From Microcoleus sp. FACHB-1515 (GTDB taxonomy: Bacteria > Cyanobacteriota > Cyanobacteriia > Elainellales > Elainellaceae): 64,000 bases of DNA. The position numbers and the translations under genes were made by a program. The notes under the pieces are model-generated. The model saw only the letters and a list, made by a program, of their open reading frames with translations, had not been told where the DNA came from and made no database searches. The DNA lies in contig NZ_JACJPO010000018.1 of assembly GCF_014696105.1 (NCBI RefSeq), positions 1-64,000 on the forward strand. Reading direction: 5' to 3'. Positions within the stretch are counted from its first letter, which is position 1; each line of letters opens with the position of its first letter. Shown piece by piece: positions 4,474 through 53,166 of this stretch.

Positions 4474-5421
4474 ATGAAGCGTGTTCGATCGTTCCTGGGC
4501 TGGTTTTTTGGTGCGTCTTTTTTAATGGGCGCGATCGGTTGTGTTATCAACGGCACTCCATTTAGTGGCCTCGTTTTTCTAATTTGGGCGTTACTGTGTT
4601 TGCCACCTGTTAATCAATTCGCACAGCAGCGAGGTTTTCGCGTTCACCTCCTGATAAAAGTCATTATCTTTTTAGTGAGCATTGTTCTCGTCAACATTAT
4701 TGAACCCAGCGATTTTGATGCTACGCCAGTTGCAGAGGAATCGCCTGTTCCGCTCGAAACACCAACAACGGCCTTCCAAACTCCAACTCCATCGCCTTCT
4801 GCCACGCCAGTACCATCTCCCACACCGACATTAGAAGAATCAGTTACGCCCGTACCCTTAACGGAGGCAGAACAATTCAAGCAGATAGTTTTAACTCACA
4901 CAGATGGATTGTTTGCTATCGATCGAATCCAGAACATGAGCGCAGATGAACTGTACGTCTATCGTGAAACTTTAACTGAAGCTGTTTTGGATGCTATCAA
5001 CGGAGGCATTCCATTAGAAGCGGTTAAACAAACTTTTGCCGATCAGCTTCACATCAAACAGGGAATGGATGAAAAGCTTTCCTACAACATCTCAAATGGC
5101 TTAATTGAAGGCATTTTGGCGTGGGAGCGAGGGGAACGCCCGTCTGGTGCTACCGCCGCAGTTGAAGAACAATTCACCACAACATCAGCAAGTCCGGTTT
5201 CAGGGCAGATTGGTCGCTTGGTCGCAGCTACCCCCAACGCCCGTATCAATCTTCGTGACCAACCGAGTACAAGCACTCCGACTGAACGATATGGGCTGGA
5301 GGGCGATCGCGTCGTATTACAAGAAACGACCACTGGCAGCGACGGCTACACCTGGCACAAAGTACAGTTTCAAGCTTCAGGGGCGATCGGATGGGTTCGT
5401 GCTGATTTTGTTGAATTCTAA
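4474..5421 (+). CDS. Membrane protein with C-terminal SH3 domain
   Basis: The function is unknown. The 315-residue protein starts with two hydrophobic segments (about residues 8-45 and 58-75), so it is probably anchored in the inner membrane. A Pro/Thr/Ser-rich linker (about 85-130) follows. The middle part is helical and resembles host-cell attachment or Ltp-type small domains. The last 65 residues form a bacterial SH3 domain, with the usual RINLRDQPS start and IGWVRADFVEF end. Bacterial SH3 domains generally bind peptidoglycan or other cell-surface ligands, so a periplasmic or cell-wall role is plausible. Its neighbours raf1 and tRNA-Arg give no functional clue. Confidence 0.75.
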   Translation: MKRVRSFLGWFFGASFLMGAIGCVINGTPFSGLVFLIWALLCLPPVNQFAQQRGFRVHLLIKVIIFLVSIVLVNIIEPSDFDATPVAEESPVPLETPTTAFQTPTPSPSATPVPSPTPTLEESVTPVPLTEAEQFKQIVLTHTDGLFAIDRIQNMSADELYVYRETLTEAVLDAINGGIPLEAVKQTFADQLHIKQGMDEKLSYNISNGLIEGILAWERGERPSGATAAVEEQFTTTSASPVSGQIGRLVAATPNARINLRDQPSTSTPTERYGLEGDRVVLQETTTGSDGYTWHKVQFQASGAIGWVRADFVEF

Positions 5422-5522
5422 ACTAGCTGTGCTTCTCCTGCCGCATCAAAGCGAGCCTAACCTTCTTAACTACATGTAAGCAAAAAATGCTTTCAGCGTT
5501 ACGGCTTCTAGGGTTATTCAGA

Positions 5523-5596
5523 CGGGACTGGCGCGATTTGAACGCGCGGCCTACCGCTTAGGAGGCGGTTGCTCTATCCTGCTGAGCTACAATCCC
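5523..5596 (-). tRNA. tRNA-Arg(CCT)
   Basis: A 74-base cloverleaf folds on the minus strand. The acceptor GGGATTG pairs with CAGTCCC, the anticodon stem ACCGC/GCGGT carries loop CTCCTAA (anticodon CCT, reading AGG), and the T arm GCGCG/CGCGC carries TTCAAAT. The discriminator is G and CCA is not encoded. Confidence 0.94.
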
Positions 5597-5655
5597 ATTG
5601 CTACCGTCATGATAGCAAGTGCTTTTTGATGTGCAAATAAAAGATCGCCCTTTTG

Positions 5656-6747
<1,092 letters not shown>

Positions 6748-50116: not shown

Positions 50117-51379
50117 ATGGCGACAAACAATATTCTCACCCTGACGAACGACGAATTTTCTCAATCATCGCTAGTGCTTTTCACCAAGCCAGTTCCTTCA
50201 AATCAAGGCTTGTCCATCAATTTTGATTTCTACGCCTATGGCGGAAGTGGCGGCGACGGCATCAGCTTTATTTTGCTCGATGGGTCGCAGTCGCCCGTTC
50301 AGCCCGGTGGCTTTGGTGGCTCTTTGGGCTATGCTCAACGAGCCACTGAAGGAGATGCCGCACCTGGAATTGCAGGGGGCTATCTTGGCATTGGTTTTGA
50401 TGAATTTGGGTTCTTTTCGGCAGAGGCAGAAGGGCGCGTTGGCGGCATGGGTGGGCAGGCCGATTCGATCGCCGTGCGCGGCAGTGCTGCCACCAACTAC
50501 GCTTTCCTGACCGGAACCGGATCGCTACAGCCGTTTGGCATCAGCCTTGACAACATTGCGCCAAACGCCAATCGCAACAACTCGCGGCGACGGGCACAGG
50601 TAGACCTGACTCCGACTGGCCTGCTTTCGGTGCGAGTCGATTTCAACGGCGACAACGACTTTGACGACCCCAGAGAACTGGCGATCGATTCGTTCAACGT
50701 GGTCAATGTCAACGGTGCGCTGCCAAGCCGCTTCAAGTTTGGCTTTGCCGCTTCAACAGGTGCAAGCACCAACGTTCACGAAATCGGCAACTTTCAGGTA
50801 AGAACAGCAGCAGGCACGCCGATCGCGGGCGAGTTTCGCGACAGCCTACAAGTAGGCGGCGACAGCGACGATCAGCTTGTTGGTGACAATCAAGACGATG
50901 TGTTGACAGGCGGCGACGGCAGAGACACTAGCACAGGCAACGGAGGAGCCGATCGCTTCTTGTTCTCTGGCACAACCAAAGCCGCCGCCTTGCGTACCTC
51001 CACCTTTCGATCGCTCGATCAAATCACGGACTTTACCTTTTCCGAGGGCGATCGCTTTCAGCTTGACTTTGACAATAATCTCAGCACGCGAAATCTGCCG
51101 CGCCGCCTGTACAACGCCGGAGAACGGAGGGGCAACCTGCGTAGAGCCGCTCAGTCTGCTTATGCAGATTTGCTGCCGAACCGCAGAGGCAATCAGTCGC
51201 TCAAGCCGAATGAAGCCGTCTTCTTCCGAAATGGCAGCCGCACCTACCTATCTGTGAATGATGACAAGGCAGGCTTTTCGCCCCGAAACGATCTGCTCGT
51301 CGACGTCACGGGCATTCAGTTTTTCGGCAGAGATGCTCAGCGCGTCGGTACGCTGTCACGCACACGTTATTTTGCATAG
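50117..51379 (+). CDS. L-type-lectin-like protein with RTX calcium-binding repeats
   Basis: This 420-residue protein has no Sec signal peptide. Residues about 5-235 look like a legume/L-type lectin domain, with GGSGGDGISFILLDGS, GGYLGIGFDEFGFF and a final strand KFGFAASTGASTNVHEIGNF. Residues about 250-285 carry two or three RTX nonapeptides (GGDSDDQLVGDNQDDVLTGG). The remainder (FRSLDQITDFTFSEGDRFQL, then NEAVFFRNGSRTYLSVNDD) resembles the C-terminal part of serralysin-type and cyanobacterial RTX proteins, which directs type I secretion. It is probably an exported carbohydrate-binding surface protein. No type I secretion genes are adjacent. Confidence 0.8.
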   Translation: MATNNILTLTNDEFSQSSLVLFTKPVPSNQGLSINFDFYAYGGSGGDGISFILLDGSQSPVQPGGFGGSLGYAQRATEGDAAPGIAGGYLGIGFDEFGFFSAEAEGRVGGMGGQADSIAVRGSAATNYAFLTGTGSLQPFGISLDNIAPNANRNNSRRRAQVDLTPTGLLSVRVDFNGDNDFDDPRELAIDSFNVVNVNGALPSRFKFGFAASTGASTNVHEIGNFQVRTAAGTPIAGEFRDSLQVGGDSDDQLVGDNQDDVLTGGDGRDTSTGNGGADRFLFSGTTKAAALRTSTFRSLDQITDFTFSEGDRFQLDFDNNLSTRNLPRRLYNAGERRGNLRRAAQSAYADLLPNRRGNQSLKPNEAVFFRNGSRTYLSVNDDKAGFSPRNDLLVDVTGIQFFGRDAQRVGTLSRTRYFA

Positions 51380-51446: not shown

Positions 51447-51637
51447 GCGCTTTATTCATCACAAAACATCAAAAAGGAACGAGCGATCGACTCCATTCAA
51501 AAGTGCGATCGCCATTTTTCTATTAACAAGGAAATTGCGGCTTGCAAAGCTACCTGCGATACATCACGATCGCGGTGGCGCGGTTAAGCTTAAACGTTTA
51601 TGGGTTGTAGTAGATTGACCCAAGCCAGCAAGCTCCT

Positions 51638-52678
51638 ATGACTGTTTTTCGTTCGGCCTCTGTCCAAAAAGCATCAACCTTGGCGGAGCACTACTATACG
51701 TCGCCAGAAATTTTTGAGCAAGAAACTCAGCGCATCTTTCACAATCACTGGATCTGCGTCGGTCGTGGCGAGCAGATTGTTGATGTAGGAGATTATTTTC
51801 TCGCTCAAATTGGCGCAGAAAATCTCATTATTTTGCGCGATGCTCAAGGATGTGCTCGCGCCTTCTTCAATGTCTGTCGTCATCGCCGCACGCGCCTGTG
51901 CCAATCGCCGCACGGCCAGCTTGGTGAAATGATTTGCTGTACTCATCACGGCTGGCGATATAGCCTGGAAGGACAACTGCGATCGGCGCGTCGTGAAAGC
52001 GTTCCGGCAGAAGAAAGTGCGCTGTTTGCTTGTGCGCTGTATGAATGGGAAGGATTTCTTTGGGTGAATCTTGCACCCAATCCAGTGCCGTTCACGCAAA
52101 CGGTTTCGCCACTGCTTAGTCAGTTCGCGCCTTGGCGACTTGCCAGTTTGCGCGTGGTCGAGCAAATTACCGATGAGGTGCAGGCCAACTGGAAGCTGAT
52201 TTTTCAAGCCTACTGCGATCGCTATCTCTACACGCCGACCGCCAATCGATCGCCCAGCTTGAGTGCAGGCGCATTTCTGGGCGCATCGCAAGCGATCGAT
52301 CGCGATGTGCTGCCGCTGCCCGGACTGCGCGGCGAACAAGGCAATCGCGCCTACTACTACTCTTTATTTCCCACAATGCTGCTGAGTTTATATCCCAGCC
52401 ATGCGATCGCCCTGCGGCTATATCCCCAAGCGGCTGATCGCACGCGCATTGTCTGCGAGTGGCTGAGCGATCGATCGGCCATGAGCGCGGTGGCGATGGA
52501 AACCTGGAAGCGAAATCATCGTCAAGCTTGGTTTGGCTGTGAACAAATGCAGCGTCGGCACACCGCCCGATCGATGCACGCCAACGGTTTGACTGCTTTC
52601 GATCGCGAATATCTGCGGGTGCTGGGCGCTTCAGCTTTCGGTTTGCCGCAAAACTACGCTTGGCAGCAGGGACACTGA
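51638..52678 (+). CDS. Rieske 2Fe-2S protein with altered oxygenase iron site
   Basis: This 346-residue protein has the layout of the alpha subunit of aromatic-ring-hydroxylating oxygenases. The Rieske cluster ligands are complete: Cys80-x-His82 and Cys101-x-x-His104 in CTHHGW. In the catalytic domain the conserved N-W-K (184-186) is present. But the segment that should read E-N-Y-x-E-C-Y-H-x4-H reads QAYCDRYLYTPTA: the two iron-binding His positions are Leu197 and Ala202. The protein can probably carry an electron through its Rieske centre but not bind the mononuclear iron in the usual way. The start (ATG 51638) fits relatives. No reductase gene is adjacent. Confidence 0.85.
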   Translation: MTVFRSASVQKASTLAEHYYTSPEIFEQETQRIFHNHWICVGRGEQIVDVGDYFLAQIGAENLIILRDAQGCARAFFNVCRHRRTRLCQSPHGQLGEMICCTHHGWRYSLEGQLRSARRESVPAEESALFACALYEWEGFLWVNLAPNPVPFTQTVSPLLSQFAPWRLASLRVVEQITDEVQANWKLIFQAYCDRYLYTPTANRSPSLSAGAFLGASQAIDRDVLPLPGLRGEQGNRAYYYSLFPTMLLSLYPSHAIALRLYPQAADRTRIVCEWLSDRSAMSAVAMETWKRNHRQAWFGCEQMQRRHTARSMHANGLTAFDREYLRVLGASAFGLPQNYAWQQGH

Positions 52679-52887
52679 AAAAATCGGCACAAGGTGGCAC
52701 AAGCGATCGCTTGATCTCTCGCACACTGAATTCAGCGTTTAACTGTCTTTTTGCCCTGTCGCTTTTAGCGGCGGGCATTTTATTTTGAGGCTGGTGAGTT
52801 TGAAGCGATCGCCCGTGTAAATTCGACAATCCACAAATCTTAATCTTTCTTCAAGGTAGAATACTGAAGAAAGTCTTAAGAAATTCG

Positions 52888-53166
52888 ATGCAGACGGATT
52901 ATTACGGGATTTCGATCGCTTCGACTCAGTTCGCTTCTGGCTGGCGCTGGCAGGTCGCCCTGCCGATCGGCTCTAGCTTCACGTCCGACGAAAGCTTTCC
53001 GACCGCAGAGCAAGCGCTGTATGAAGGCCATCATTGGCTGCGTGTCAAATCTGCCTTCAGCGCATTGAACCGCAGCCTGTCGGAAATTTGCGCGAGCGGC
53101 AGAATCAACCAGCAAGAATACGGCGCGTTGATGCAGTCGTTCTTGCTGTTGACCAAACACGAATAG
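52888..53166 (+). CDS. Small conserved cyanobacterial protein, function unknown
   Basis: This 92-residue protein of unknown function opens with YYGISIASTQFASGWRWQVA, continues with SFPTAEQALYEGHHWL and ends RINQQEYGALMQSFLLL. The plan (GW-x-V strand, S/T-x-x-E/Q-A helix, short tail with EY or EW) is like that of the small protein at 16173. It is convergent with mfd (20 bp gap). Confidence 0.65.
   Translation: MQTDYYGISIASTQFASGWRWQVALPIGSSFTSDESFPTAEQALYEGHHWLRVKSAFSALNRSLSEICASGRINQQEYGALMQSFLLLTKHE

Follow-up and report, generated by a model that had tools for sequence, protein, structure and literature searches.

A group V-type Rieske protein without mononuclear iron ligands: a candidate pseudo-oxygenase of one cyanobacterial genus

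Results

A Rieske oxygenase-type gene and its surroundings

The window, that is, the whole 64,000-nucleotide stretch of DNA that was analysed, contains a gene with the following layout.

51472..51637, + strand: upstream stretch common to the window and its same-genus relative, likely with the gene's own promoter inside (blastn match 51472-53153, 79%)
51638..52678, + strand: candidate Rieske pseudo-oxygenase gene, 346 aa, in an open frame with Pfam Rieske and Ring_hydroxyl_A domains and a CntA-like fold
51746..51994, + strand: Rieske [2Fe-2S] domain, residues 37-119 (PF00355, E 4e-12); the genome search puts the domain at the same place

The PF00355 match was over the Pfam cut-off, and the Ring_hydroxyl_A domain (PF00848) was found at an E value of 2.3e-17. 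The best NCBIfam match, and hence the closest named model, was GbcA (E 2.5e-36) with 125 bits vs a cut-off of 670, and the closest solved structure by sequence was the carnitine monooxygenase CntA. Tyr192 lies at CntA position 203, the clade Va aromatic residue, and is invariant in the orthologue alignment. The 346-aa ORF is an intact-frame alpha subunit of a group V (CntA/GbcA-type) Rieske oxygenase, without the catalytic iron ligands.

DNA conservation with the sister genome (G001), which belongs to the same genus, starts 166 bp upstream of the start codon and runs through most of a 92-aa ORF located downstream. A promoter scan found no sigma-70-like site on the + strand of 51472..51637. The 92-aa ORF (52888-53166, +) is 76% identical and syntenic in the sister, with homologues in 9 of 98 relatives, some of them in genomes that yielded no close orthologue of the Rieske gene. 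Just upstream of the Rieske gene, a 420-aa ORF (50117-51379, +) appears by eye to encode RTX-type calcium-binding repeats behind a lectin-like domain; the conservation with the sister genome stops short of it. An operon partner or an adjoining reductase was considered and rejected, as the neighbours differ in four orthologue loci, and no partner gene was conserved across these four loci.

Retention of the Rieske ligands

The two ligand pairs of the Rieske cluster were located as follows.

51875..51883, + strand: first Rieske ligand pair, C80-x-H82, in CRHRRT; invariant in orthologues
51938..51949, + strand: second Rieske ligand pair, C101-x2-H104, in CTHH (ancestral CPYH); C and H invariant in orthologues

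All four ligands (C80, H82, C101, and H104) are kept in both the window and the sister, in agreement with the earlier note, which had read the Rieske ligands as complete. The surroundings of the cluster have changed, with P and Y of the CPYH motif beside the ligands replaced in both members of the genus, and Gly84 of the conserved CxHRG motif replaced by Arg in the window copy alone.

Loss of the mononuclear iron site

The catalytic domain was compared with seven full-length orthologues of 42-45% identity, and each site was confirmed by a column check or by the orthologue alignment.

52205..52243, + strand: lost His site QAYCDRYLYTPTA, residues 190-202; orthologues have ENYSECYHCPxxHPxL
52217..52219, + strand: Asp194 at the bridging carboxylate; Glu in 7/7 intact orthologues
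52298..52303, + strand: junction D221/R222 of a 10-residue catalytic-domain deletion, common to the sister species
52526..52528, + strand: Ala297 at the Asp ligand of the mononuclear iron, in HRQAW; ancestral NRQDW

At the catalytic motif the ORF reads ...ANWKLIFQAYCDRYLYTPTANRSP..., and H-x4-H is accordingly absent from the protein. The gapped alignment with the seven orthologues, which carry ECYHCPxxHP, indicated that a 4-residue deletion after Y196 covers His1 and that Tyr198 occupies the position of His2. With Ala297 in place of the Asp ligand, the whole 2-His-1-carboxylate triad is gone. The Cys-x-x-Cys pair that stands beside the iron in some group V members is also missing, the first Cys being Arg195 and the second lying inside the 4-residue deletion. 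No clear replacement set of His, Asp, Glu, or Cys common to both species was seen in the alignment. An alternative alignment restoring a His was rejected, because none could be placed in the site against the seven orthologues.

These results bear out the absence of both iron-binding His that the earlier note had read from the sequence, and no alignment with intact His at the site, by which that reading could have failed, was found. Its placement of Leu197 and Ala202 at the His positions rested on an ungapped alignment and has to be corrected; the comparison with the same-genus relative, AYCDRYFHPSTARR against ECYHCPLIHPELAR, gives the gapped alignment better support. Asp194 indeed preserves an acidic residue at the bridge, where the ancestral residue is Glu, and the losses extend further than had been described, to the third ligand Asp, the 10-residue loop, and the Cys pair.

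History of the loss

Orthologues were sought in 98 relatives, together with a sample of 386 genomes of the phylum and the 36 genomes of the family. Among the 98 relatives, a close orthologue (78% identity) was present only in the sister, the one other genome of the genus that was covered, and no further one was found in the phylum sample or the family genomes. The sister has the loss of His1, the loss of the Asp ligand, and the loop deletion in common with the window; in detail, both copies have 4 residues deleted, the first Cys changed to Arg, the bridging Glu to Asp, and the C-terminal Asp to Ala, and a 10-residue stretch gone. His2 seems to be retained in the sister, since its YFHPSTAR aligns with IHPELAR. 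The window reads YLYTPT at this place, with His2 and 7 more residues gone, and its copy has two further deletions relative to the sister.

The seven orthologues at 42-45% identity comprise G048, G067, and G080, which we take to be Gloeobacter; G039, G063, and G076, presumably Thermostichus-like; and G010, a member of the window's own family. All seven keep every ligand, in E-C-[YC]-H-C-P-x-[IV]-H-P and with the C-terminal Asp in NRQDW (NREDW in G010). In another genome of the family (G016, contig C149, about 4640-5900), the orthologue is split over different reading frames, in which ECYHCPTVHP and NRQDW are still carried separately; either the gene is broken or the assembly is faulty there. 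At the His site, H-x4-H or the PaO-type H-x3-H is present in every one of more than 30 further Rieske oxygenase proteins from the loci that were read. No other relative without ligands was found among these homologues; the form without ligands occurs in two genomes only, that of the window and the sister. Plasmid and viral searches gave distant relatives only, below 60% identity on plasmids and at 25% for the one viral locus.

In a maximum likelihood tree, the window and sister proteins formed one clade (100/100) with a long stem (0.86), nested within the orthologue clade (96/99). The ligand loss is therefore derived, because the pair nests inside orthologues that keep every ligand. It is also old and stepwise, because the sister shares the losses of His1 and Asp and may keep His2. 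An alignment with close homologues had been proposed in order to see whether the loss is conserved: it is largely so in the sister (His1, Asp, and the loop), and it is not at His2, which may remain there, nor in the seven intact orthologues. A recent mutation betrayed by His-bearing homologues is not what was found, the loss being old and largely common to the sister. A frameshift or an assembly error in the window was likewise rejected; the same-genus genome has most of the losses too, and both ORFs are open.

Structure prediction

The earlier note had also suggested predicting the structure. An AlphaFold2 model built from a six-row alignment (pLDDT 67, pTM 0.71) had a CntA-like fold, and the region of the lost site had no confident structure, residues 196-238 being below 50. 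The best Foldseek match was CntA 6y9d (E 1.6e-18), and VIA-align gave CntA 6y9c with a Z score of 22.6 over 285 residues and an rmsd of 4.5; stachydrine demethylase (Stc2) came next after the CntA chains among solved folds. The unstructured stretch at 196-238 is weak evidence, because the alignment is shallow.

Selection since the loss

The pairwise dS between the window and sister copies was about 0.67, and dN/dS was 0.18 (0.13-0.25). In the same genome pair, dN/dS was 0.061 for an aldehyde dehydrogenase, 0.074 and 0.079 for two ligand-intact Rieske paralogues, and 0.165 each for the 92-aa ORF and an mfd fragment, and constraint on the pair without ligands is weaker by a factor of two to three than that on the intact Rieske paralogues. 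A codon branch model gave a joint tip omega of 0.20 and rejected neutrality of both tips (2dlnL 95). With equal synonymous lengths for both tips, on which the per-lineage values rest, omega was 0.21 for the window and 0.20 for the sister vs 0.046 for intact orthologues; omega = 1 was rejected for the window (2dlnL 58), also when the catalytic domain was taken by itself (21.7), and neutrality was rejected for each tip and each half of the gene. Without a clock, a neutral window tip (omega 1) was not rejected by the model, because synonymous saturation of the stem leaves the per-branch omega unidentifiable. The ligand-poor pair is under purifying selection, and therefore selection continued after the loss began, more weakly than on an ordinary enzyme. 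In the protein tree, the window tip was 0.20 vs 0.054 for the sister, and constraint on the window copy may be the weaker.

The main rival explanation is a slow decay, in which catalysis was lost first and selection was then relaxed on an ORF that is still unbroken, especially in the window lineage. The stepwise ligand loss fits it, as do the dN/dS of 0.18 vs 0.06-0.08 for the aldehyde dehydrogenase and the two intact Rieske paralogues, the G84R change, extra deletions, and longer protein tip of the window copy, the patchy occurrence of the gene with its broken frame in G016, and the window-branch omega of 1 that stands when the clock is dropped. However, at a pairwise dS of about 0.67 both ORFs are still open and have undergone only in-frame length changes; the models reject neutrality for the pair and, given a shared synonymous rate, for each tip and half; neither species has lost any of the four Rieske ligands; and the 92-aa ORF and mfd fragment of the same pair evolve at a similar dN/dS. 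We regard the decay as unlikely on balance.

As a separate observation, residues 1-160 (51638-52117) showed a dS from the sister of 0.99, about twice that of the second half (0.48), which is perhaps a trace of recombination.

Search for a partner subunit

The protein could alternatively be a Rieske-supplying subunit of a mixed trimer, feeding electrons across the subunit interface to another chain whose mononuclear iron site is intact, like the two-chain chlorophyllide a oxygenase. In alpha3 enzymes, the Rieske cluster indeed serves the iron of the neighbouring subunit (PMC7948474), the Micromonas enzyme consists of two chains (PMC9615114), and NdmC, which has no Rieske cluster, receives electrons from NdmD (PMC10380055). 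However, the protein is the only Ring_hydroxyl_A protein of its genome, with no second PF00848 protein beside it, and the three other Rieske oxygenase-like proteins encoded there are members of different subfamilies, each with both of its own sites intact. Searches of the genome with PaO and VanA_C revealed no intact partner subunit and led only to other subfamilies and to one fragment; the latter, the sole Rieske-less catalytic-domain match over the cut-off, has an in-frame stop. With no conserved neighbour gene either, such a trimer seems improbable. A distant partner may nevertheless exist. The fragment (G000 contig C60:37076-37579) is a VanA_C-type catalytic remnant with DNAHFSIVH, in which a Rieske domain was undetected, and it looks broken.

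A further reading, in which the catalytic domain holds a different metal or a quaternary-ammonium compound and retains some chemistry or ligand-based sensing, is improbable. In its favour, the pi-cation Tyr (CntA Y203) is kept as Tyr192, Cys193 and Asp194 are common to both species, and the domain is still constrained. Against it, the alignment offers no clear His/Asp/Glu/Cys set in both species as a substitute for the triad, part of the loop is missing and the model is unstructured there, and the window protein has lost the Cys pair on which full CntA activity depends (PMC10952381).

Discussion

The sequence evidence makes it slightly better than an even case that the gene encodes a pseudo-oxygenase, namely a folded Rieske electron-transfer or redox protein unable to activate O2. 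A single-copy group V (CntA/GbcA-like) Rieske oxygenase would have lost mononuclear iron binding in the ancestor of this Leptolyngbyaceae genus, through deletion of His1, replacement of the Asp ligand by Ala, and removal of the loop; His2 would have been lost later in the window species, with the fold and the Rieske [2Fe-2S] ligands retained under selection. The product would be a Rieske protein with an assembled cluster, probably trimeric like CntA, to which a cellular donor, for example ferredoxin, would deliver an electron. This electron would not be passed to a catalytic iron, O2 would not be activated, and the protein would act in electron transfer or in a redox response.

In CntA, Glu205 relays the electron between neighbouring subunits, out of the Rieske cluster of one and into the mononuclear iron of the other, and E205 mutants, E205D included, are inactive (PMC7948474); in other Rieske oxygenase groups the bridging carboxylate is Asp (PMC12445004). 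The Cys pair is required for full CntA activity (PMC10952381). Oxygenase activity of the protein is very unlikely, because the iron ligands and the Cys pair are gone and Asp stands at the bridge. A new, non-oxygenase job is probable, because the catalytic-iron residues were lost, the iron-sulfur site was kept, and selection preserved the gene. Compared with a mistake in sequencing or one recent mutation, a repurposed protein is the favoured explanation, because the loss is largely common to the sister and the pair is under purifying selection. The earlier note had proposed repurposing as an electron carrier, a sensor, or a binder of another cofactor. The idea survives in that the iron-site loss is real and the pair is selected; the last role is the least supported of the three, because part of the pocket loop is missing, the model is unstructured there, and the two species have no replacement ligand set in common. 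Counted against the pseudo-oxygenase are the looser selection, G84R, the extra deletions, the longer window tip, the altered CPYH, the neutral window branch that stands unless equal synonymous rates are assumed, and the occurrence in two genomes only. We tentatively suggest that an alpha subunit, its whole iron site lost, may have been exapted to work alone as a Rieske protein for electron transfer or redox sensing, and selected in one cyanobacterial genus.

If this is true, a selectively maintained member without catalytic-iron ligands would provide a natural Rieske-only version of the scaffold, in which electron transfer into the Rieske cluster could be studied apart from the later oxygen chemistry. 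The intact orthologues, the relative seemingly keeping one His, and the ligand-free window protein form a natural series. Automatic naming as a ring-hydroxylating oxygenase would give the wrong activity.

In 2013, Kunugi reportedly described a Micromonas chlorophyllide a oxygenase of which one chain has no iron site. Beyond two-chain enzymes, no Rieske oxygenase without mononuclear iron ligands was described in the openly readable literature searched. The Micromonas enzyme and NdmC of caffeine degraders resemble the present case in that the two metal sites are not on one chain (PMC9615114, PMC10380055). However, both have known completing partners, whereas none was found for the window protein, which belongs to a different subfamily. 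GbcA, the best NCBIfam match, and the stachydrine demethylase Stc2, among the top folds, are group Vb enzymes with the same overall architecture; the window protein differs from them by the same ligand losses and by Tyr instead of Asn at position 203, the residue by which Va and Vb are told apart. CntA (group Va; PDB 6y9c and 6y9d) is the most similar, being the best match in sequence and fold and having the Rieske ligands and an aromatic residue at 203 (Tyr192), whereas the window protein has no His/His/Asp triad, no Cys pair, Asp for Glu205, and a shortened catalytic domain. The metal ligands are highly conserved in all five Rieske oxygenase groups and are an identifying feature of the family (PMC10952381). 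The window protein should therefore not be filed as a working member, because this defining catalytic feature fails. Its sequence points instead to a real, lineage-specific pseudo-oxygenase built on the group V scaffold.
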